From NCBI RefSeq assembly GCF_014204715.1, contig NZ_JACHLY010000002.1:372001-436000 (forward strand): 64,000 nucleotides of DNA, written 5' to 3'. Position 1 is the first letter of the stretch. Each line of letters begins with the position of its first letter. Positions 1,056-41,013 of the stretch are shown here, one piece after another. This DNA is from Streptomonospora salina. Its GTDB lineage: Bacteria; Actinomycetota; Actinomycetes; Streptosporangiales; Streptosporangiaceae. The translations under genes were made by a program, and so were the position numbers. A model generated the notes under the pieces. The model worked only from the letters and a program-made list of their open reading frames with translations, did not search any database and had not been told where the DNA came from.

Positions 1056-1898
1056 CTACTCCACCTGTGCCGGGCGGCGGGTGGCGTAGAGGGTCACCGC
1101 GCCGATACCCGTCGCGACGGCTCCGCCGAGGACGAAGCCGGTCAGGTCGACGCCGGTGGTGGGCAGGTTCCCGCCACCGGCGGCGCCGGAGGAGGCGCTG
1201 TCCGTCGCGGTACCGACGTCGCCACCGGTACTCCCGCCGTCTCCGGCGCCGGTGCCACCGCCGTTTCCGGCGCCGGAGGGCGGATCGCCGGCGTCGCCAC
1301 CGCCGCCATCACCATCGCCGGGGCCCTCACCCCCGCCATCACCATCGCCGGGATCCTCACCCCCGCCATCACCATCGCCGGGGCCCTCACCCCCGCCATC
1401 ACCATCGCCGGGGCCCTCACCCCCGCCATCACCATCGCCGGGGCCCTCACCCCCGCCATCACCATCGCCGGGGCCCTCACCCCCGCCATCACCATCGCCG
1501 GGGCCCTCACCCCCGCCATCACCATCGCCGGGGCCCTCACCCCCGCCATCACCGTCACCGGGGCCCTCACCCCCGCCATCACCATCGCCGGGGCCCTCAC
1601 CCCCGCCATCACCATCGCCGGGGCCCTCACCCCCGCCGCCGGGCTCCGGGTCTTCGTCGGCGGGCTCCGGGGCTTCGTCGGCGGCGCGGGCCGGGACACC
1701 GGCGCCTTCCACCGCACCGACGAGTCCGACCTCCGGCTCGACGACCTGCTCCTCCTGCTCCGCAGTCGGCGGGACGGCCTCCTGCGCGTCGGGGGCCGCA
1801 TCCGCGTCCGCGGTGCCGGCGTAGGCCGGTGCGCCGGCGAAGCCCGCGGCAATCAAGCCGGCCGCGGCCACGCCGATCGCACGTGGTTTCCAGGACAT
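1056..1898 (-). CDS. LPXTG-anchored, repeat-containing cell-surface protein
   Basis: This 280-residue protein has an N-terminal signal peptide (MSWKPR, then a hydrophobic stretch ending in AYAG at about residue 28). A C-terminal sortase signal follows the classical plan: LPTTG at residues 245-249, a hydrophobic helix, then a basic tail (RRP). The middle, about residues 90-210, is a Gly/Asp/Pro-rich repeat with a 10-residue unit close to GGEGPGDGDG. No enzymatic domain is visible. The acidic Gly-rich stalk probably extends an N-terminal segment from the wall or is structural; this is inference. A sortase would be expected elsewhere in the genome. It starts at ATG, 26 bases past the end of the next upstream gene on the same strand. 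Confidence 0.85.
   Translation of the reverse strand: MSWKPRAIGVAAAGLIAAGFAGAPAYAGTADADAAPDAQEAVPPTAEQEEQVVEPEVGLVGAVEGAGVPARAADEAPEPADEDPEPGGGGEGPGDGDGGGEGPGDGDGGGEGPGDGDGGGEGPGDGDGGGEGPGDGDGGGEGPGDGDGGGEGPGDGDGGGEGPGDGDGGGEGPGDGDGGGEDPGDGDGGGEGPGDGDGGGGDAGDPPSGAGNGGGTGAGDGGSTGGDVGTATDSASSGAAGGGNLPTTGVDLTGFVLGGAVATGIGAVTLYATRRPAQVE
1321..1637. repeat. 30-bp tandem repeat (about 10.5 copies) inside the LPXTG gene
   Basis: Ten contiguous 30-bp units run from 1321 to 1620 with a partial eleventh to 1637 and a diverged unit just before 1321. Unit 2 carries a two-base change (G to D-coding variant) and unit 8 two changes near its end; the rest are identical. The period is a multiple of three, so copy-number changes keep the reading frame. 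This is a minisatellite/VNTR, not a CRISPR, because there are no spacers. Confidence 0.95.
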
Positions 1899-1924
1899 AT
1901 CGCTCCATTCCGCTTATCAAGGGG

Positions 1925-3334
1925 TTATTCGGGCACGAGGGCGTACAGGTCGCCGTCGGCGACGACGACCGCGCGGCCGCCGAGCAGCCCCCACGGCCGC
2001 GCGACGTCGCCCTCGAGTTCGATCGGCTCTGCGCCCGCGGTGGCCGCGACCGCACCGCCGCCCACGGCGCCGAAGACGGTGTCGCCGGCGGCGCTGACGG
2101 CCCCGAACCCCTCCAGGGCGTCGGCGTCGCCGGCCTGCGGATCGGCGACGACGGGGCCGAAGGCGGCTGCGCCGGAGCTGTGCACGTACGCGCCTTCGCG
2201 GAGGCCCTCCAACGGGGCTTCCGCGGCGGCCGCGACCGAACCGTCCGACCAGTCGTGGAACGCGAGCAGCACCCGGTCGTCTTCGCCGGGCAGGCTCCAG
2301 GCGGCGACGACGCGGCCGCCGCCGGCGGTGTAGACCTCGTGGAGGGCGCCGGCGCCCTCGGGCGGCCGGGGCTGGACGCTCCGGTTCGTGCCGTCGGGTG
2401 CGACCCAGATCCACGGGCCCTGCACGACGGCGGTCAGCACCTGTTCGCCGTCGGAGAGCACCGCGCCGGTCCCCTGAGGCTTGTCGACGGAGGCGAGCTC
2501 TCCGTCGATCGGGATCGAGGCACGGCCGCCGGCGATGACCAGCGGCGCGCCGCCGGCGAAGCTGACGTCGGCGCCTTCGGGGAGTTCGATCTCCTCCGGG
2601 GTGCCGCCGTCGGGCGGCCACAGCCACAGTGCTCCGCCGCCGACCACCGCGACGGCCGTACCGGCGCCCGCGTGCACGAAGCGCGGCGAGCCCGCGACGT
2701 CGTCGGCGGGAATCGGGAGGTCGGCCCGCCATACGGGCTCACCGTCGGGCCCCACGACGCTCAGTCGGCCGCCGGTGTCGATGTAGGCGGCGCGTTCGCC
2801 GCCGGGGGCGACGTCGGGCCGTGTGTCGGCGTGCATGGTCCGGCGCCAGACCGCTTCCCGGGTGAACCCGGGCGGCGCCTGCCGTGTCTGCATGGTCGCG
2901 GCGTGCTGCTCCTGGGCAGGGGCGGTCGTGTCGGGCCGCGGTTCGGGTCCGTAGCGCACGGCGGCGAGAGCACCGCCGGCGAGGAGCGCCGCGGCGAGGA
3001 CCGCGCCGGCCGCGGCCAGGGCGATGCGCCTGCCGCGCGTGGACGTGCGTTTCCCGCTCAGCCGGGCGGCCTCGGTGCCGCCGGCGGCGCGCACGACGCC
3101 GGCGGGGGTGACGGTCAGCCGCCAGAGGCCGTTGCCGTCGCGGGCGTCGACCAGAACGGGCCTGCCCAGGTGGGCGGCGTACGCGGCGGCCCGGTCCAGG
3201 GCGGCGTTGCGCGTCTCTTTCGGCGTAGTGCCGACGACCGTGTGCGTATGGCGCTCGACGGTGACCTCGGCGCTGCGCTCGTCGGCGGAGACGACCAGGA
3301 TCACGGGACTGCTGTGCGGCGCCGGTTCACTCAC
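1925..3334 (-). CDS. Membrane-anchored protein with propeller-like extracytoplasmic domain
   Basis: A 469-residue protein of unknown function. The cytoplasmic N-terminus (residues 1-100) looks like a compact alpha/beta domain. One transmembrane helix follows at about 104-125. The long outer part (about 160-469) shows recurring short units with Asp-Gly turns and alternating hydrophobic strands (VVGPDGEP, WLWPPDGG, WVAPDGTN), as in PQQ-like or WD-type propellers. No catalytic motif is recognisable. It lies just upstream of the LPXTG gene in the same direction, so the two may be co-transcribed. A sensing or surface-binding role is only a guess. Confidence 0.75.
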   Translation of the reverse strand: MSEPAPHSSPVILVVSADERSAEVTVERHTHTVVGTTPKETRNAALDRAAAYAAHLGRPVLVDARDGNGLWRLTVTPAGVVRAAGGTEAARLSGKRTSTRGRRIALAAAGAVLAAALLAGGALAAVRYGPEPRPDTTAPAQEQHAATMQTRQAPPGFTREAVWRRTMHADTRPDVAPGGERAAYIDTGGRLSVVGPDGEPVWRADLPIPADDVAGSPRFVHAGAGTAVAVVGGGALWLWPPDGGTPEEIELPEGADVSFAGGAPLVIAGGRASIPIDGELASVDKPQGTGAVLSDGEQVLTAVVQGPWIWVAPDGTNRSVQPRPPEGAGALHEVYTAGGGRVVAAWSLPGEDDRVLLAFHDWSDGSVAAAAEAPLEGLREGAYVHSSGAAAFGPVVADPQAGDADALEGFGAVSAAGDTVFGAVGGGAVAATAGAEPIELEGDVARPWGLLGGRAVVVADGDLYALVPE

Positions 3335-3420
3335 GGCCTCCTCCGGGAGCGCGGGGCCGCACCGGCGGGCACCGCCTGCGGCGGACGCGGCGGTGGAGGC
3401 GCTGCGGTCATCAGGGTTCT

Positions 3421-3460
3421 GCGGCGGATACCCCGGTCGTCAGGCCGGGGAGGACGCCGC
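3421..3460 (+). repeat. Two-tier hairpin, IS605-like right-end structure
   Basis: An inner stem of CCCCGG (3431-3436) with CCGGGG (3445-3450) is enclosed by an outer stem of GCGGCG (3421-3426) with CGCCGC (3455-3460), with a small symmetric internal loop. The layout resembles the subterminal hairpin at the 3' end of IS200/IS605-type elements and their omega-RNAs. No transposase or TnpB gene is intact next to it. Confidence 0.4.
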
Positions 3461-4256
3461 TTCCTCCTTTCCGGTGGTGTTGCCTTCGGGCCGGTTCGTG
3501 TAGCCGTGACCGTCCGCCGCCGCCGGCGGCGATGCCGGAGAACGCCTCGGTGCGGGGCATACGCAACCTCGGGAACCCGTGGTGCCGGTCGCGCACGAAC
3601 ACGTCCGGGTGCACCTCACGGTGCTGCTCCCTGACCGGGGGTCGGTCGGGGGCGGCGCCCCGCCGGCTGAAGCGCCGCGGCCTCCTCTCGCACGTGTTCC
3701 GCACCGGGGGCCGCGGGGCGCCCGGCTCCCGTTCGTCCCTGTTCCCGGGGGTGTCTGCCCGGCCGGGGTCCGGAGCAGGCCGCTGAGGAGGCACGGCCTG
3801 GCGGGTCTGCTGTCCTGTGTGCAACGGAGCCAACGGGGTCACCTCCCTCGGGTGTCGGCCGGTGCTGGTAACGGCGGGCCTCGCCCCCGGCGGGTGCGCC
3901 CCGCCTTCAGGCGGGAGAACCCGTTGCGGGGGCCGATCCCGTTCCGCCGCTAAGGGATGCTGTCGTGCCGGGCGCTCGGAGGCGGAGGGCACCGCCGCCG
4001 GAGCCGGCCGCCTTGCGGGGTCGGCCTGCTGCAGGGAGTAAGGTCGCGCCACGGCGATAATACTTCCGCCCCGCCGCCCCCGCCCCCGGTACGCAGCGGG
4101 CGACGGCGGCCGCGGCGCCGCCGGATCGTTCCGCGGGGCCGCGCACGGCGGCCTGCGTCGCAGCGTGTGTGCGCACGACGGTGCACACCGGCGGCCGCGG
4201 GGCATCCGCCGTCGTCGGCCCTGCGGGTCTGTTCTGGCCACATCCGGCCGCCGTAG

Positions 4257-6868: not shown

Positions 6869-8548
6869 ATGCCTCCCACGTCCGCATCGACGAGCGGCGC
6901 CCGGCCGCGCCGAGGCGAGGGCCAATGGGCCCTCGGCTACCGGGAACCGCTCAACAAGAACGAAGAGAACAAGAAGAACGATGACGGGCTGAACGTCCAG
7001 CAGCGCATCATCGACATCTACTCCAAGGCCGGCTTCGATTCCATCGACCCCGCCGACCTGCGCGGCCGCTTCCGCTGGTTGGGCCTGTACACCCAGCGCG
7101 CTCCCGGCATCGACGGCGGCAAGACCGCGGTGCTGGAGCCCGAGGAGCTCGACGACCGCTACTTCATGATGCGGGTCCGCATCGACGGCGGCCAGTTGAG
7201 CGTGGCCCAGCTGCGCGCCATCGGCGAGATCTCCACCTCCTACGCGCGCGACACCGCCGACGTCACCGACCGGCAGAACGTCCAGCTGCACTGGATCCGG
7301 GTCGAGGACGTCCCCGCGATCTGGGAGAAGCTGGAGTCCGTGGGGCTGTCGACCATGGAGGCCTGCGGCGACACTCCCCGCGTGATCCTGGGCTGCCCCC
7401 TGGCCGGCATCGACGCCGACGAGATCGTCGACGCCACCCCCCAGATTCAGCAGATCAACGAGGAGTACGTCGGCAGTTCGCTGTTCTCGAACCTGCCGCG
7501 CAAGTTCAAGTCCTCGATCTCTGGGTGCTCGGCGTACTGCACCAACCACGAGATCAACGACGTGTCCTTCGCGGGCGTGGTCGGCCCGGACGGCACCCCC
7601 GGATACGACCTGCTGGTGGGCGGCGGGCTGTCGACCAATCCGATGTTCGCTCAGCGGCTGGGCGCTTTCGTGCGCCCCGACCAGGTCAGCGAGGTCTGGG
7701 CGGGCGTCACCGCGGTCTTCCGCGACTACGGCTTCCGGCGCCTGCGCCACCGTGCCCGCATCAAGTTCCTGATCAAGGACTGGGGGCCGGAGGCGTTCCG
7801 CGAGGTGCTCGAAAAGGAGTACCTGGGCTATGCGCTGCCCGACGGTCCCGAGGTGGATATGCGCGAGGGCCAGCAGCGCGACCACATCGGCGTCCACCCC
7901 CAGCGCGACGGCGGCAACTACGTCGGCTTCGCGCCGCGCGTGGGACGGGTGTCGGGCACGCTGCTCTCGCGCATCGCCGGTATCGCCGAGGAGCACGGCT
8001 CCGACCGCATCCGCACCACGGCCGACCAGAAGCTCGTCGTCCTCGACGTCGAGGACCGGCGGCTCGACTCCATCACGGCGGCGCTGGAGGCCGAGGACCT
8101 GCAGGTGCGGCCCAGCGTCTTCCGCCGCCAGACCATGGCCTGCACCGGGATCGAATTCTGCAAGCTGGCGATCGTCGAGACCAAGGACCGCGGCTCGGAG
8201 CTGATCGACGAGCTGGAGCGCCGGCTGCCGGACTTCCCCGAGCCGGTCACCATCAACCTCAACGGCTGCCCCAACTCCTGCGCGCGCATCCAGGTGGCCG
8301 ACATCGGGCTCAAGGGCCAGTTGGTGACCGACGCCGACGGCCGGCAGGTCGAGGGCTTCCAGGTGCACCTGGGCGGCGGCATGGGGCTCACCCCCTCCTT
8401 CGGACGCAAGGTGCGCGGGCTCAAGACCACCTCGGCGGAGCTGCCCGACTACATCGAGCGGGTGCTGCGGCGCTTCCTGGACGGGCGCGAGGAGGACGAG
8501 TCGTTCGCCTCGTGGGCCGCCCGCGCCGAGGACGGCGATCTGAAGTGA
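6869..8548 (+). CDS. sir: Assimilatory sulfite reductase (ferredoxin), sirohaem/4Fe-4S
   Basis: A 559-residue nitrite/sulfite reductase reducing sulfite to sulfide with six electrons from ferredoxin. Two ferredoxin-like and two sirohaem-binding halves are present. The cluster ligands are visible as ACTGIEFC (Cys 425, Cys 431) and NGCPNSC (Cys 467, Cys 471), one of which also bridges to sirohaem. The N-terminal RRGEGQWALGYREPLN is typical of actinobacterial SirA. The ATG has GGAGG upstream. It opens the operon that continues with the zinc ribbon, APS reductase and chelatase. Sulfite rather than nitrite is supported by that context. Confidence 0.95.
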   Translation: MPPTSASTSGARPRRGEGQWALGYREPLNKNEENKKNDDGLNVQQRIIDIYSKAGFDSIDPADLRGRFRWLGLYTQRAPGIDGGKTAVLEPEELDDRYFMMRVRIDGGQLSVAQLRAIGEISTSYARDTADVTDRQNVQLHWIRVEDVPAIWEKLESVGLSTMEACGDTPRVILGCPLAGIDADEIVDATPQIQQINEEYVGSSLFSNLPRKFKSSISGCSAYCTNHEINDVSFAGVVGPDGTPGYDLLVGGGLSTNPMFAQRLGAFVRPDQVSEVWAGVTAVFRDYGFRRLRHRARIKFLIKDWGPEAFREVLEKEYLGYALPDGPEVDMREGQQRDHIGVHPQRDGGNYVGFAPRVGRVSGTLLSRIAGIAEEHGSDRIRTTADQKLVVLDVEDRRLDSITAALEAEDLQVRPSVFRRQTMACTGIEFCKLAIVETKDRGSELIDELERRLPDFPEPVTINLNGCPNSCARIQVADIGLKGQLVTDADGRQVEGFQVHLGGGMGLTPSFGRKVRGLKTTSAELPDYIERVLRRFLDGREEDESFASWAARAEDGDLK

Positions 8549-8876: not shown

Positions 8877-9565
8877 ACGTCACATTGGACGGCCAGGACC
8901 TGGCGGACAGGGCCGCGGCCGAACTGGAAGACGCAAGCGCTCAGGAGATCATCCAGTGGGCCTCCGAGACCTTCGGCGACCGGCTGTGCATGACCTCCTC
9001 CATGGCCGACGCACTCATGGTCGACCTGGCCTCCCAGGTCGTCCCCGGAATCGACGTCATCTTCCTGGACACCGGCTACCACTTCGCCGAGACCATCGGC
9101 ACGCGCGACGCGGTGGAGTCCGTCTACCCCATCAATCTGATCAACGTCGAACCGCAGCGCAGCGTGGCCGAGCAGGACCGCGACCTGGGCCCGCGGCTGC
9201 ACGGCCGCAACCCCGGAATCTGCTGCCACGTGCGCAAGGTGGAACCGCTGCAGCGCGCGCTGGAGCCCTACGACGCGTGGCTGACCGGCCTGCGCCGCGA
9301 CGACGCCGCCACCCGCCGCGGCACCGGAGTGGTCCAGTGGGACCGCCGCAAGAAGATGGTCAAGGTCAACCCGATCGCCCGGTGGACCCGCGAAGAGGTC
9401 GACACCTACATCGAGGAGAAGGGTGTCCTGGTCAACCCGCTGCAGTACGACGGGTTCCCGTCCATCGGCTGCGCCCCCTGCACGCGGCGGGTGGCCGGGG
9501 GCGAGGATCCGCGCAGCGGCCGCTGGGCGGGGATGAACAAGACCGAGTGCGGCATACACGTTTGA
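8873..9565 (+). CDS. cysH: Adenylylsulfate (APS) reductase, CysH family
   Basis: A 230-residue thioredoxin-dependent reductase converting activated sulfate to sulfite. The [4Fe-4S] ligands that mark the APS-using type are present: Cys-Cys at 117-118 (ICCHVRKVEPL) and CxxC at 200-203 (GCAPCT). The catalytic Cys is in the C-terminal ECGIH motif (Cys 226). The PP-loop nucleotide site lies in the N-terminal third (MTSSMADALM). The cluster cysteines argue for APS rather than PAPS as substrate. It overlaps the zinc-ribbon gene by four bases. Confidence 0.95.
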   Translation: MNVTLDGQDLADRAAAELEDASAQEIIQWASETFGDRLCMTSSMADALMVDLASQVVPGIDVIFLDTGYHFAETIGTRDAVESVYPINLINVEPQRSVAEQDRDLGPRLHGRNPGICCHVRKVEPLQRALEPYDAWLTGLRRDDAATRRGTGVVQWDRRKKMVKVNPIARWTREEVDTYIEEKGVLVNPLQYDGFPSIGCAPCTRRVAGGEDPRSGRWAGMNKTECGIHV

Positions 9566-35293: not shown

Positions 35294-35488
35294 CTACAGC
35301 CCAGCCGTCCGAACGGCTGCCACGAACGCCGCCCACTCGGTGGAGGGCATCTCAAGGTGCCCCGCGCCGCGATCCCTGGTGTCACGCACAGCCGCGCCGT
35401 GGTCGGACGTAGCAGCGACCTCTACGCACTCGCCGCCCGTCTGATTGCTATAGCTGCTCTTCTTCCACGTGCCTTCAACAATACTCAC
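35294..35488 (-). CDS. DUF397 domain protein
   Basis: A 64-residue protein with the DUF397 hallmarks WKKSSYSNQTGGECVEVA, VRDTRDR and a C-terminal EWAAFVAAV. GTG 35486-35488 was chosen because AGGAGG lies six bases upstream; it overlaps the end of the XRE gene by 14 bases. DUF397 proteins are nearly always encoded beside Scr1-type XRE regulators in actinobacteria and bind or antagonise them, in a relation compared with toxin-antitoxin pairs. Confidence 0.9.
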   Translation of the reverse strand: MSIVEGTWKKSSYSNQTGGECVEVAATSDHGAAVRDTRDRGAGHLEMPSTEWAAFVAAVRTAGL

Positions 35489-36188
35489 GTCCGGCCTCCT
35501 CAATCAGTTGCAGCGATTCGGCTTCCGGAAGCGCTGCACCGCGCAAGTCTCCGAAGTGCCGCACGTAGTTGCGCCGTACGCCGGCGTCCTCGACAGGTCC
35601 ACCCGCGTCACGCGTCTCCATGTAGAGGACTTCGGTCCCGTCCGGCATGGCGAGCAGTGTGAATCCTTCCGAGAGTCCGGGGTGGCACTCAGCCCCGAGA
35701 GGGATGACTTGAATGATCACGCGCGAGCCGTGCGACACCTCGACCAGTCGTTCCAGCTGACGGCTCATGATCTCACGTCCTCCTGTACGGCGCCGTAGCA
35801 CGGCCTCGTCAAGGACGTAGACGAGCAGAGGTGGCGTCCCGGATTCCAGTACCTCTTGCCGTTCCATCCGCGCAGCTACGCGGCCGTGGATCTCCTCCTC
35901 ACCGGCGACGCGGTCGCCGTCGCGCAAGATCCGGTGAGCGTACGCCTCGGTCTGTAGCAAGCCGGGGATGACCATCGGACTATAGGCCCGGATCTCCAGG
36001 GCCGCCCGTTCCAGCGAATCGATGGCCGAGAACGCGGACGGCACTCCACTGGACTTGTTCGCGGTCTCCCACACCCGGACGAGTACTCCACCCGCCGCCA
36101 GCGCTTTGTCCAGTTCAACCACGTAGTCGTCTCTGGGCTGCCGCGTACCGCGCTCGAAACCACTGATCAGAGCATGCGACACCTGCAC
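35475..36188 (-). CDS. Scr1-type XRE regulator (DUF5753), main open frame, missing its first helix
   Basis: A 237-residue frame. It begins inside the DNA-binding domain with VSHALISGFERGTRQPRDDYV and continues through the DUF5753 domain (about 85-235: YSPMVIPGLLQTEAYA, VLDEAVLRR, VIPLGAECHPGLSEGF). Family members have about 28 more N-terminal residues supplying the first helix of the helix-turn-helix. Those residues are encoded directly upstream in another frame (36189-36286), so this gene is frameshifted. The start used here (GTG 36186-36188) is only the first available in this frame. It sits with DUF397 and an RsbW-like ATPase divergently encoded. Confidence 0.85.
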   Translation of the reverse strand: MQVSHALISGFERGTRQPRDDYVVELDKALAAGGVLVRVWETANKSSGVPSAFSAIDSLERAALEIRAYSPMVIPGLLQTEAYAHRILRDGDRVAGEEEIHGRVAARMERQEVLESGTPPLLVYVLDEAVLRRRTGGREIMSRQLERLVEVSHGSRVIIQVIPLGAECHPGLSEGFTLLAMPDGTEVLYMETRDAGGPVEDAGVRRNYVRHFGDLRGAALPEAESLQLIEEAGREYC

Positions 36189-36286
36189 GAGCGATCCTAG
36201 CCCCCTTGGGACATGCCCGCCTGAACGCGCAGTCGTCGAAGCTCACGCCCAAACCGCACCCACTGGTGACGCACCTTGTCAGCCAT
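36189..36286 (-). pseudogene. Out-of-frame N-terminus of the Scr1-type XRE gene
   Basis: From ATG 36284-36286 the minus strand reads MADKVRHQWVRFGRELRR, then LRVQAGMSQGG and a TAG stop. This is the standard N-terminus of this regulator family. Adding one G to the run of five G (plus-strand C 36201-36205) would join it exactly to the downstream frame as MSQGGLGSLVQVSHALIS, the expected spacing. It is therefore a one-base deletion in a homopolymer: a real inactivation, a phase-variable tract, or a sequencing error. Confidence 0.8.
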
Positions 36287-36296
36287 ACATAACAGT

Positions 36297-36378
36297 GTTC
36301 TACAGCACGGACATGGGCCTCAACAGGAGATACAAGGTTTCTCCACATCTGTTTAACAGTGCACCAGTGCTGTTGAAC
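36297..36378. promoter_or_regulatory. Repeated GTGCTGTWGAAC half-sites in divergent promoter
   Basis: GTTCTACAGCAC (36297-36308) is the reverse of GTGCTGTTGAAC (36367-36378) with one change, and the latter forms a dyad with GTTTAACAGTGCAC (36351-36364). The region lies between the leftward XRE gene and the rightward small-protein/ATPase operon. It is markedly AT-richer than its surroundings. These look like binding sites for the XRE regulator or a relative. Confidence 0.5.
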
Positions 36379-36502
36379 GACTATCGGGCGGTGCTGCGCT
36401 TAAGCAGAGTTGGAGTGCCGATTACAAACAGACGGCCCTGTCGGTGCTTCGCGGGCACCGGCAGGGCCTTGATCCCCGACCTGAACACGCAGGTGGAGAC
36501 CC

Positions 36503-36766
36503 ATGCGCAACTTTAGCCGCCCGAACCCGGGCCAGATGCCCGATGCCCGCCGGCACGAGACCGGTGCCCGGCCGCGCCGCGCCCGCCGCCCGCGCGGCGC
36601 ACGTCCGTACCTGGCGATGCAGCCCGCTCCCGAGCCCCCTGTGCTGCCCGTCTCCGACGACGGCACGGCCGAGCTGTGCAGCGCGGTCCGGCGGCTGCTG
36701 GCCGCTCGCCCCGACCTGGCCCAATCGGCCCACTCGGCCCGCACCACGGCGGGAGTGCACCGATGA
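36503..36766 (+). CDS. Small hypothetical protein upstream of the RsbW-like ATPase
   Basis: An 87-residue basic protein I do not recognise, with an Arg-rich N-terminal half and a short C-terminal helix (GTAELCSAVRRLLAARPDLA). A good ribosome site (GGTGGAGA) precedes the ATG, and the stop overlaps the next start (ATGA), which supports a real gene. It is the first member of a three-gene overlapping operon. Confidence 0.65.
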   Translation: MRNFSRPNPGQMPDARRHETGARPRRARRPRGARPYLAMQPAPEPPVLPVSDDGTAELCSAVRRLLAARPDLAQSAHSARTTAGVHR

Positions 36767-37233
36767 CACTCACGCCCCCCGGAATCCTGGTCGCCCGCAC
36801 CTTCCCCGGCACCCCGGACCAGGTCGGCACCGCCCGCCGCTGGCTGGAGGACACCCTCACCCGCACCCCCGGGCGCATCCCCGATGCGACCACCGCCACA
36901 GCCGTGCTCCTGCTGTCGGAAACCGCCACCAACACCCTGCGCCACACCGCCAGCGGCGCCCCCGGCGGGACCTTCACCGTCCACGTCCACGCCGACCGGC
37001 ACACCCTGGCCGTCATCGTCCAGGACGCGGGCAGCGCCACCACCCGGCCCGAACGCGCGCGAACCTCCATCGAGGACGACCACGGGCGCGGCCTGGCTCT
37101 CGTCGACGCCTTCGCCGACACCTGGCAACCGCTCCCCACCGGCAACGGAATCTCCTTCACGCTCAGCCTCACCCCGGCACCGACCGGCACGGACCGTGCC
37201 GTCGCCCGCACGGCACGGGAGCACGCGCGATGA
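36763..37233 (+). CDS. ATP-binding protein, RsbW/anti-sigma-like GHKL kinase
   Basis: A 156-residue single-domain GHKL ATPase. The N box is SETATNTLRHTASG, the G1 box VQDAGSATTRP and the G2 box DDHGRGLALVDAFADTW. Such RsbW-like proteins phosphorylate anti-anti-sigma factors or act as signalling ATPases, and are often encoded with DUF397/XRE pairs in actinobacteria. It overlaps both neighbours by four bases, indicating tight coupling. The partner sigma or anti-anti-sigma factor is not in the window. Confidence 0.9.
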   Translation: MTLTPPGILVARTFPGTPDQVGTARRWLEDTLTRTPGRIPDATTATAVLLLSETATNTLRHTASGAPGGTFTVHVHADRHTLAVIVQDAGSATTRPERARTSIEDDHGRGLALVDAFADTWQPLPTGNGISFTLSLTPAPTGTDRAVARTAREHAR

Positions 37234-37514
37234 CCGCTATCCCCTACGCCCAACTCGGCCCCGGCGGCCACGACCCGCACGGATGCCTCAACCACCGGTT
37301 CGGCGCCGTCTGGCGCATCCGATGCGACCTCAGCCCCGACGGGCAGTACTGGATCGCCGACCGCTACGAGCGCGCCCCCGCCGACGCCGCCGCTCACGGC
37401 GTGTGCGACCGGCACGCGGGATGGATGCGCCCCGCCGAACTGTGGCGGTGGTTGCAGGAGGAGGAAACCGCCTGGCACCGCTGGAACACCGGACAACCGC
37501 CCACCACCGACTGA
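37230..37514 (+). CDS. Small hypothetical protein coupled to the RsbW-like ATPase
   Basis: A 94-residue protein with conserved-looking aromatic and charged segments (GGHDPHGCLNHRFGA, GQYWIADRYERAP, ELWRWLQEEETAWHRW). It has three Cys and several His but no clear metal motif. The ATG overlaps the ATPase stop. A damaged copy of its start is fused to a piece of the ATPase gene at about 38186. Function unknown. Confidence 0.75.
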   Translation: MTAIPYAQLGPGGHDPHGCLNHRFGAVWRIRCDLSPDGQYWIADRYERAPADAAAHGVCDRHAGWMRPAELWRWLQEEETAWHRWNTGQPPTTD

Positions 37515-37587
37515 GCGACTGTCGGGTGTCCAGTCGCGCACGGTGGGCAGATCCGGGGCCGACGCGTCGGTCGCCCGGGCAGTGGTG

Positions 37588-37712
37588 GAGGCACCCTCCG
37601 GGAACCACAGGCATCGCCGCCACCACAGAGGTTGCGGCAATGGGGCGCAGCTCGCCCCGCGAGCGAGCCGGCTTGCCGCCGAGCGCACGCCGCACCTTGA
37701 AGCGGGACCCGC
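37588..37712. repeat. Left arm of a 125-bp near-perfect inverted repeat
   Basis: The 125 bases match the reverse complement of 37999-38123 at 124 positions; the one mismatch is G 37610 against T 38101. The arms are separated by 286 bases (37713-37998). No transposase, target-site duplication or recognised gene is visible. On the minus strand the arm encodes part of an open frame in which RFKVRRALGGKPARSRGE looks protein-like, so the arms may derive from an inverted duplication of a lost gene. Confidence 0.97.
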
Positions 37713-37998
37713 ACAGCAGCGCGCACAGCACGGTGGCCGGGACGGTGCCGATCCCACGGCGGAGGCCGCGTCCGTCGCGCGGATCGTCCACGGCGGTGCG
37801 GTGTCGGGCGAGGTCGCCGACGGCGGGGCCGGGGCGCGGCAGAGTGGTGGGGCAGCGGTGTTCTTGTGGATCCGGAGAGTCGTGTCCCCGCGCTCCGGAG
37901 CTCCGTTGTTGTGTGTCGGTCGATCGCCGCAACCGTCATGATGCCGTGACCTGTCTCATCGCTCGCACCGAACGACTGCGAATCAGCCCTGGGTGGTG

Positions 37999-38123
37999 GC
38001 GGGTCCCGCTTCAAGGTGCGGCGTGCGCTCGGCGGCAAGCCGGCTCGCTCGCGGGGCGAGCTGCGCCCCATTGCCGCAACCTCTGTGGTGGCGGCGATGC
38101 TTGTGGTTCCCGGAGGGTGCCTC
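37999..38123. repeat. Right arm of the 125-bp inverted repeat
   Basis: Reverse-complement partner of 37588-37712. It lies between the spacer and a rearranged copy of neighbouring genes (about 38186). Transcription through both arms would give a very long hairpin RNA. The whole interval 37515-38484 contains no other supported gene. Confidence 0.97.
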
Positions 38124-38185
38124 CTCGGTCCGCAGCCCCTCGGCAAACCCCCATCACCGATCTAGCTAGCCCGACCGGGGCGCAC

Positions 38186-38275
38186 GTGAGGACCTCCGTC
38201 GAGGACGACCACGGCCACGACCCGCACGGCCGCCTCAACCACCGCTTCGGCGCCACCCGGCGGATCGAACCGGAA
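38186..38275 (+). pseudogene. Chimeric relic: ATPase fragment fused to start of its partner gene
   Basis: In one frame this reads VRTSVEDDHG followed at once by HDPHGRLNHRFGATRRIE. The first part matches RTSIEDDHG of the ATPase (about 37063-37087), the second matches HDPHGCLNHRFGAVWRI of the 94-residue protein (about 37270-37320). The roughly 180 bases between them in the intact genes are missing. The join falls in a short shared CGG/CACG stretch, so it looks like a deletion in a diverged second copy. Confidence 0.75.
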
Positions 38276-39492: not shown

Positions 39493-39538
39493 GCGCTGGG
39501 CCGCCGGGGCGCCCGCGGCGGCCTCAGCGGCCCAGCGC
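39493..39538. terminator. Bidirectional terminator overlapping the fprA 3' end
   Basis: GCGCTGGGCCGC (39493-39504) pairs with GCGGCCCAGCGC (39527-39538), a perfect 12-bp stem. The right arm contains the last codons of fprA, so the stem is partly coding. Confidence 0.65.
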
Positions 39539-40891
39539 GCCGTACATGTCGTCCCAGCTGCGCAGCTTGACCCGCTCACCGCGGCCCAGCGCCGCGCCCA
39601 GCTCGGCTTCGGCGGCGTCGATACTCAACCAGTCGCCGTAATCGGTGACCGCGGCGCCGCTGCCGTCGAGCACGTCCTCGACCGGTTCCAGACCCGCGGA
39701 CGTGCCGCCGGCGGCGGCCCGCAGCTCGGCGGCGTCGTCGAGCAGGCTGCGCACCGTCGCGGCCGCGTCGGACTTGTTGGTGCCGATGACCCCGGTGGCG
39801 CCGCGCTTGATCCACCCGGCGACGTAGTCGCCCCGGCGCACCTCGCCGCCGGAGCCCAGCACCCGTCCCGCGTCGTGCGGCACGGTGCGGGTCCGCTCGT
39901 CGAACGGAACGCCCGGCAACGGGGTTCCGGCGTAGCCGATGGAGCGGAACACCATGCCCGCCTCGACCGTGTCGAAGACTCCGGTGCCCTGCAGCCGCCC
40001 GTCCTCGTCGAGCTCGGTCTCCTCCACCCGCAGGCCTTCGGCGCGCTCGGCGCCCAGGACCTCGACCGGACGCCGCCAGAACCGCAGGTCGATGCGGCGC
40101 GGAAGGTCGCGGGGAGTGCGCCCGGCCCACTCGGCGAGGACCTTGAGGTTGGTGCGCGCGGCCCGCTCGGCCGTGCGCATGGCCGGGTCGTCGGGGGCGA
40201 TGTCGACCTGGTCGGACCGCAGCGCCACCTCGGCGTTGTCGAGCTTGCCCAAGTCGCGCAGCTCGGGGGCGGTGAACTTGGCCTGGAGGGGGCCGCGCCG
40301 CGCCAGCAGGTCGATGCGGCGGACCTTGCTGGCCGCCAGCACGTCCAGCATGGGCTGGGGGATATCGGTGCGCTGCAGCTCGTCGGCGCTCTTGGCGAGC
40401 AGGCGCACGACGTCGAGGGCGACGTTGCCGGCGCCGACCACGGCGACCTCTTCGGAGTCGAGTAGGAAAGACTCGACCTCGGAGTCGGGGTGGCCGCAGT
40501 ACCAGTTGACGAAGTCGGTGGCGGCGACGCTGCCGGGCAGGTCCTCGCCGGGGACGCCCATCCGGCGGTCGACGCTGGCGCCGGTGGCGTAGACGACGGC
40601 GTGGTAGGAGCGGCCCAGGCTTTCGCGGGTGATGTGGCGGCCGAACTCCACGCCGCCGACGAAGCGCACCTGCGGCTTCTCCAGCACCTCGCGCAGCGAC
40701 CGCGCCACGCCTTTGATCTTCAGATGGTCGGGGGCCACGCCGTACCGCACGAGGCCGTAGGGGGTGGGCAGTCGATCGACGATGTCGACGGCCACCTCTT
40801 CGCGGCTCTGCCGGGTGAGGGCGTCTGCAGCGTAGATGCCGGCGGGACCGGAGCCGATCACCGCCACCCGCAGGGGGTCGGGAGAGGTCAT
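39524..40891 (-). CDS. fprA: Ferredoxin/adrenodoxin--NADP+ reductase FprA
   Basis: A 455-residue adrenodoxin-reductase-like flavoprotein that passes electrons between NADPH and ferredoxins. The FAD fold starts with VAVIGSGPAGIYAADAL, the NADP fold is at VAVVGAGNVALDVVRLLA, and the C-terminal GYVAGWIKRGATGVIGTNK motif (here GDYVAGW) is typical. It could supply reduced ferredoxin to enzymes such as the sulfite reductase encoded in this window. ATG 40891 was chosen over in-frame upstream starts. Confidence 0.93.
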   Translation of the reverse strand: MTSPDPLRVAVIGSGPAGIYAADALTRQSREEVAVDIVDRLPTPYGLVRYGVAPDHLKIKGVARSLREVLEKPQVRFVGGVEFGRHITRESLGRSYHAVVYATGASVDRRMGVPGEDLPGSVAATDFVNWYCGHPDSEVESFLLDSEEVAVVGAGNVALDVVRLLAKSADELQRTDIPQPMLDVLAASKVRRIDLLARRGPLQAKFTAPELRDLGKLDNAEVALRSDQVDIAPDDPAMRTAERAARTNLKVLAEWAGRTPRDLPRRIDLRFWRRPVEVLGAERAEGLRVEETELDEDGRLQGTGVFDTVEAGMVFRSIGYAGTPLPGVPFDERTRTVPHDAGRVLGSGGEVRRGDYVAGWIKRGATGVIGTNKSDAAATVRSLLDDAAELRAAAGGTSAGLEPVEDVLDGSGAAVTDYGDWLSIDAAEAELGAALGRGERVKLRSWDDMYGALGR

Positions 40892-41013
40892 GCCACCATT
40901 CTGGCCCATTGCGGCGCCGCGGCGCTGCCCCACGCGGGCAGGAAAAGCGCGGGGCGGCGCCGGCGCCGGCGGGGATCCGTCCGCCCTGCCGCTTTCCGGC
41001 GCGGGTGCGCGAC

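Follow-up and report, generated by a model that had tools for sequence, protein, structure and literature searches.

What explains two arms of 126 nt that face each other across 286 nt in the genome of Streptomonospora salina and are almost perfect copies of one another? Within the window, by which we mean the whole 64,000-nt stretch of DNA analysed, the left arm (37587..37712, forward strand) and the right arm (37999..38124, reverse strand) are 99% complementary, with one difference over 126 positions. The original prediction of a 125-bp inverted repeat at this site is therefore sound, each arm being one base longer at its outer end than was described there. It had traced the near-identity to either recent origin or active homogenisation and had proposed that the locus might be a non-autonomous element, a scar of inverted duplication or a source of RNA. 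We think it probable that the locus represents a dispersed, non-autonomous mobile repeat in a rearranged form that is probably no longer mobile and whose left arm was copied from the right by fold-back. The near-identity of the arms then most likely reflects recent rearrangement and not an RNA function.

A chance origin of the arms is excluded by the presence of at least 27 matches to the arm (E ≤ 0.001; query and partner included, many of them partial, the best 40 of 109 candidates being scored) in the same 5.6-Mb genome. Each arm contains a hairpin core (37630..37688 on the forward strand in the left arm and 38023..38081 on the reverse strand in the right arm), and each core scores 77.5 bits against a covariance model of the arm core, R1. 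Other inverted pairs occur in S. salina at C1:343.0-343.8 kb and C1:677.7-678.7 kb, and a further pair surrounds a gene at C1:2350.4-2351.7 kb. Near-identical inverted repeats such as these arms are error-prone in short-read assembly, and the pair could in principle be an artefact of that kind. This is exceedingly unlikely given that the two arms differ by one base and are flanked on either side by different sequences, and that they lie on a 510-kb contig of a three-contig genome.

The right arm runs on into the outer end of the element (38125..38161, reverse strand). The last 18 bases of this end (38144-38161), which read ATCGGTGATGGGGGTTTG on the reverse strand, match one end of an IS982-like IS exactly and are followed by CTAG (38162..38165), as at the IS982-like copies that we read. 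Two IS copies of ~980 bp in S. salina, whose 306-aa transposases are identical, also have this end. The best family for this transposase is IS982 (NF033520), at 117 bits against the NCBIfam cut-off of 130. A length of ~980 bp fits IS982, and the ends begin ATCGGTG or ATCGTTG, not AC; members of the IS982 family are given as ~1 kb long with AC ends in the part of PMC7335449 that covers them.

The spacer between the arms has a separate source. Most of it (37713..37991, reverse strand) is the 5' part of an ISAs1-family IS whose end lies at 37984-37991, and it is 97% identical to the interior of the pair at C1:677.7-678.7 kb. In this fuller copy both arms and both IS982-like terminal repeats are present, CGAG stands at either side, and the arms enclose an ISAs1-family IS that has been shortened. 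The interior aligns in two pieces, at 86% identity, with an ISAs1-family IS at C1:4125 kb, which is bounded by 21-bp inverted ends and a 9-bp direct repeat; the middle of the IS is absent from the fuller copy. The ISAs1 transposase domain is called in the fuller copy (PF13808, 38.5 bits, cut-off 32.3), and a relative of the same family at locus L107 scores 161 bits with NF033564 (cut-off 70). In the window, a match located an N-terminal transposase remnant of 30 residues from the PF13808 region (37702..37791, reverse strand). The claim that no transposase is present thus holds for intact IS genes, none of which lies in the interval, and fails for this ISAs1-family remnant of ~30 residues in the spacer and for the IS-type terminal repeat beyond the right arm.

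Both IS ends and matching target-site flanks, as expected of an IS982-derived MITE, are present in the fuller copy; the window copy has the right end only. An IS982-like transposase may have moved the ancestor in trans, and we infer that such mobility was conferred by the captured IS ends. The evidence for transposition as a unit is one 4-bp flank match, because the fuller copy is the only one with both ends known. The suggestion of a non-autonomous element is borne out at the level of the arm family, which looks like one. That the window copy is itself an intact MITE, with the 126-bp arms as its terminal inverted repeats, is highly unlikely: two inverted arms, a short non-coding interior and many copies would suit such an element, but the arms are subterminal, and the terminal repeat is external to them, both in the fuller copy and at the right end of the window copy, and is absent at the left end of the latter.

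Comparison with the fuller copy indicates where the window copy was altered. Read on the reverse strand, the window is 97% identical to the fuller copy over 465 aligned positions (463 bp of shared sequence), from the outer end to a 12-nt microhomology, GCGGGTCCCGCT (37701..37712, reverse strand), which occurs a second time in the right arm at 37999-38010. Past GCGGGTCCCGCT the window switches to a reverse copy of its own arm. The same 12 nt recur 359 bp further on in the fuller copy, and relative to that copy the window lacks the left end and 359 bp of interior. The left arm in the window is probably an inverted copy of the right arm, without the outer terminal repeat. It differs from the fuller copy's two arms at 7 and 12 positions. 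At the 8 positions that separate the arms of the fuller copy, the window right arm has the right-arm type at 7, while the window left arm shares the type of its partner at 6 and has the other type at 1. Four bases are private to the two window arms and occur in none of the other four arms compared, which supports the recent origin that had been proposed.

These observations suggest that replication or repair, having slipped at GCGGGTCCCGCT, made a reverse copy of 126 nt from the right arm before it rejoined elsewhere, with removal of the left end. A fold-back template switch at the microhomology would explain the identity of the arms, the deletion and the lost end together, and by parsimony we infer a single step. 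The single mismatch between the window arms implies that such an event was recent. This contrast is modest, since the arms of the other comparable pairs differ at only 6 (C1:343 kb) and 8 (the fuller copy) positions. The same two pairs, which have the same interior type, indicate two ancestral arms and so lend some weight to a possible though distinctly less probable alternative, gene conversion, in which the right arm recently overwrote a pre-existing, diverged left arm and the 359-bp deletion and the loss of the left end were separate events. The homology also stops near the natural ends of the arms, as gene conversion would allow. Nevertheless, gene conversion requires more events, and the identical tract and the deletion share one exact endpoint, the 12-nt microhomology. 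We therefore prefer the fold-back event, under which the two identical arms of the window copy fit an inverted-duplication scar, as one of the original proposals had it, and active homogenisation is not required to explain their identity.

The original prediction had also recommended that the genome and its relatives be searched for single arms, and this search revealed a dispersed family. With up to 150 candidates scored per genome, model R1 identified 18 arms in S. salina, at least 150 in Streptomonospora sp. PA3, 19 in Streptomonospora alba, 28 in G147, 51 in G072 and 80 in the actinomycete metagenome bin DX1.bin85 (DX1), with 2 in G063, 1 in G192 and none in G030 or G107. Wider scans with strict filters and few candidates scored gave R1 matches in 8 of 345 genomes of the order and in 2 of 394 drawn from the class, both of the latter belonging to the same family as S. 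salina. The exact core pattern was found in 108 stretches, of which 82 are from PA3, 24 from DX1 and 1 from S. alba, in a search that may have left out records close to the S. salina genome; the remaining match is isolated, in an unrelated Vogelbacteria bin. A search of plasmid DNA gave no match. G030 and G107 are Streptomonospora genomes in which the covariance model detects no arm, and four congeners have from 18 to at least 150, which implies rapid gain or loss.

Copy number is thus high, and placement is mostly extragenic, as in REPINs and BIMEs. Crude gene prediction places 7 of 43 DX1 arms, 11 of 209 PA3 arms and 5 of 17 from G147 and G072 combined inside genes, against a coding share of 65-77% of the DNA. 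The PA3 genes that flank arms are convergent in 62 cases and divergent in 14.

Each arm is an imperfect hairpin with an outer stem (GCGGCAA/TTGCCGC), a bulge, a short stem (GGC/GCC or replacements of it) and a variable apical hairpin. We assessed this structure on 56 diverse arms, bearing in mind that it was drawn after viewing the same alignment, which favours it over slid versions. The proportion of paired cells (87.5% against 83.8 in shuffles), the covariation score (0.152 against 0.090, with slid structures at 0.062 or lower) and the number of cells with double changes (41 against 20.7) were each equalled in 0 of 500 shuffles. The numbers of pairs with a double change (5, reached in 244 of 500 shuffles) and of further pair types (20, reached in 146 of 500) did not exceed shuffles. 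On three of five covariation measures, then, the arm is an imperfect palindrome with compensatory changes like those of REPINs and BIMEs. The weakest helix is the apical one, at 71.5% paired. A GNA triloop caps 46 of the 56 arms (N being A in 27, C in 16, T in 2 and G in 1), with GC/GC closure in 38; the apex of the window arms is CCC and not GNA. A loop count over the whole core (GCGNAGC in 252 of 265) was dropped, since type-B arms hold that word outside the apex. GNA loops closed by at least two G-C pairs form unusually stable DNA mini-hairpins, according to the relevant part of PMC4686876.

The usual unit in relatives is an inverted doublet of two arms. Doublets are 112-143 bp long in G072 (n = 11) and 147-193 bp long in 21 of 23 cases in DX1. 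Beyond GG/CC they have no outside sequence in common, as judged from a DX1 consensus of 53 pattern matches, a few of them due to chance. Across all loci compared, mostly from PA3, the distance between arms is exactly 60 bp in 50 of 88 close pairs. In PA3, inverted arms also alternate in tandem arrays that repeat every 273-274 bp (L112 924-2196 and L113 2975-3619), so that inverted doublets and, in PA3, alternating tandem clusters are both found, as in REPINs and BIMEs. No fixed target-site duplication was seen at bare doublets (DX1 n = 23, G072 n = 11, G147 n = 3, S. alba n = 2), and although the 72 PA3 doublets show an excess, their shared flanks confound it. A larger repeat of ~1.9 kb, with internal tandem repeats and no clear gene, surrounds many of the PA3 doublets (L124 ~1800-3700 and ~25-28 other loci). 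At one DX1 locus (L119), tRNA-Met genes with the same anticodon (2175-2249 and 2748-2822) stand on either side of a doublet.

In most of the relatives' doublets that we read, the inner hairpins of the two arms are unlike, and arm-to-arm identity is therefore not a trait of the family. This bears on the proposal of an RNA-producing locus, or more generally of arms kept identical over 126 bp by selection for a long RNA hairpin or a DNA cruciform, which we consider very unlikely. Read-through across the locus would take in both arms, as they lie between two forward-strand genes, and the covariation of the family core in three of five measures is also consistent with such a role. However, none of eight sequence sources matched Rfam at the gathering score; at a loose E-value, six of the relatives' loci gave two tRNAs and one sub-threshold CRISPR repeat, none of them on the element. 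A scan of the locus revealed no promoter- or terminator-like site, but with 0.0 promoters expected in this DNA it had almost no power. Folding energies of single cores are unremarkable: as RNA they fold no better than shuffles (z = −0.58 and −0.90), and as DNA the z values are −0.02, −2.12, −1.39, 0.65 and −0.79.

The surroundings of the locus also speak against a selected RNA or cruciform. The arms lie in a gap between a small ORF that ends at 37514 and a Zn-peptidase gene (PF04228), both on the forward strand. In 5 of 5 other Streptomonospora genomes compared, TetR, Zn-peptidase and reductase-like genes are adjacent (the last corresponding to the gene at 39524-40933, which we take to be reductase-like), and the block that holds the repeat is missing between these same neighbours. 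In S. salina, a DUF5753 regulator, an HATPase gene, the small ORF, the element and, next to it, what is left of a second HATPase/small-ORF pair, as degenerate fragments fused together (38185..38266, forward strand), are found there. This lineage-specific block spans ~35475-38270 of the window and, judged from sequence, is itself an insertion.

If the window copy is a damaged mobile element, the question becomes how the family spreads. In S. salina the doublets have the IS982-like ends described above, and many PA3 doublets end in a CTACGTCCTGTTTAAGAA-like sequence (61 matches at ≤2 mismatches) that resembles the 19-bp ends of an IS5-family IS in S. salina. An IS of ~1040 bp with perfect 19-bp ends lies at L289 1501-2540, the one locus in which its IS5-family transposase was read, and S. 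salina has three further end pairs 1040 bp apart and two single ends of this IS5-like IS. By sequence resemblance, the same doublet thus bears ends like those of two IS of unrelated kinds. IS are known to target REPs (PMC1525189, in the part concerned), and the doublets may have been captured by IS ends later, by IS982-like ends in S. salina and IS5-like ends in PA3.

The transposase to be expected of REP-like doublets is a RAYT, and we rejected it as a general mobiliser. Among ten genomes, Y1_Tnp matches were found in four (S. salina, G147, G072 and G192) and none in PA3, S. alba or DX1, three genomes with multiple copies of the arm; at none of seven Y1_Tnp loci did an arm core lie within the 1.5-kb flanks.

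Another candidate is a gene for a protein of 302 aa, which we take to be Vsr-like. It lies between two inverted arms in S. salina (C1:2350.4-2351.7 kb; L322 8390-9711, cores at 8437 and 9622), and in PA3 a homologue of 71% identity is likewise flanked by two inverted arms (G080:C5:125.4-126.7 kb; L323 9429-10684, cores at 9475 and 10592). The two sites are non-syntenic, and DNA alignments between the species take in the gene with both of its arms, ending ~40-46 bp beyond the cores. Within 19-20 kb around both genes, open frames of at least 150 residues include a single other matching pair, at 33%. A dN/dS of 0.25 for the gene pair indicates purifying selection. The protein has a weak match, below the cut-off, to PF18741 (restriction-endonuclease-like), no NCBIfam family and only one match in a PDB sequence search (E = 0.16); its structure predicted from the single sequence has a mean pLDDT of 35.5. 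Three plasmid protein records are related to it (67-69% coverage, 30-43% identity), two of them annotated as DUF559.

We tentatively raise the idea, which we regard as rather doubtful, that the doublets are the non-autonomous form of an undescribed element consisting of an arm, a DUF559/Vsr-like endonuclease gene and a second arm, which would spread paired single-strand DNA hairpins without a tyrosine (RAYT) or DDE transposase. The association of gene and arms comes from two genomes. Searches by tblastn of 321 loci and of all loci from L239 on, including 40 stretches around part of the arms in G072, G147, S. alba, DX1 and G063, gave no third case, and the gene may therefore equally be a passenger. 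Several pairs of arms 0.25-3.5 kb apart that appeared with a loose pattern were gone under a stricter one.

For the window itself the outcome is sobering, since its eye-catching inverted repeat, almost perfect though it is, was most likely left as a scar by a mobile element that has been damaged. Its arm family, on the other hand, gives the actinomycetes a REP-like repeat of hairpin doublets with which no RAYT was found. The family also provides a natural test of what mobilises such a repeat, as the model finds no arm in two of six Streptomonospora genomes and at least 150 in one. If it is true that the endonuclease-like gene drives the doublets, repeats in bacteria would have a new means of spreading. 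Among the papers listed in a limited open-access search of the literature on actinomycete or Streptomonospora repeats, there was no description of the arm family.

Three kinds of known system resemble parts of what we have described. The first is the ISAs1-family IS, to which the interior of the fuller copy is related in two pieces and of which the window keeps part of the first piece; the fuller copy differs from it in the internal deletion and in flanking sequences that are inverted copies of each other and not a direct repeat. The second is the IS982-like MITE. The outer 18 bp of the element (22 with CTAG) equal one IS end, and the fuller copy has matching 4-bp flanks, but the interior does not come from that IS and the window copy has one end only. 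The parent IS in turn departs from IS982 in scoring below the model cut-off and in lacking AC ends.

The third and closest comparison is with REPINs and BIMEs, whose working mode is treated in parts of PMC2817692, PMC3116915, PMC3733652 and PMC6006769. The arm family shares with them a mostly extragenic location, tens to at least 150 arms, imperfect palindromes and sharp-edged inverted doublets, as well as alternating tandem arrays, those of PA3 resembling BIME-2 clusters, and pairs of unlike hairpins (heterodimers). A table in PMC2817692 shows the GCGNAGC apex in enterobacterial REPs as well. Membership nevertheless fails, because no RAYT was found with the arms and there is no GTAG tag: neither 5' GTAG nor GT[AG]G, nor a CGTC tag, stands at the foot of the hairpin, where GG precedes the foot and the bases before GG vary. 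The hairpin core is longer, at ~50 nt, and the family occurs in actinomycetes, whereas the part of PMC3733652 that lists GTAG and CGTC families takes them from other phyla, and the words 'actinobacteria' and 'streptomyces' do not appear in its main text. The CGTC REPs of that paper, for which the part concerned gives no dedicated transposase, differ from the arm family in tag, stem length and phyla. They are likewise REP-like repeats without an associated transposase gene. By analogy, the arm family probably works in a REPIN/BIME-like mode, its underlying doublets probably behaving as REPINs do, as paired hairpins that would be recognised as single-stranded DNA and spread by some enzyme.
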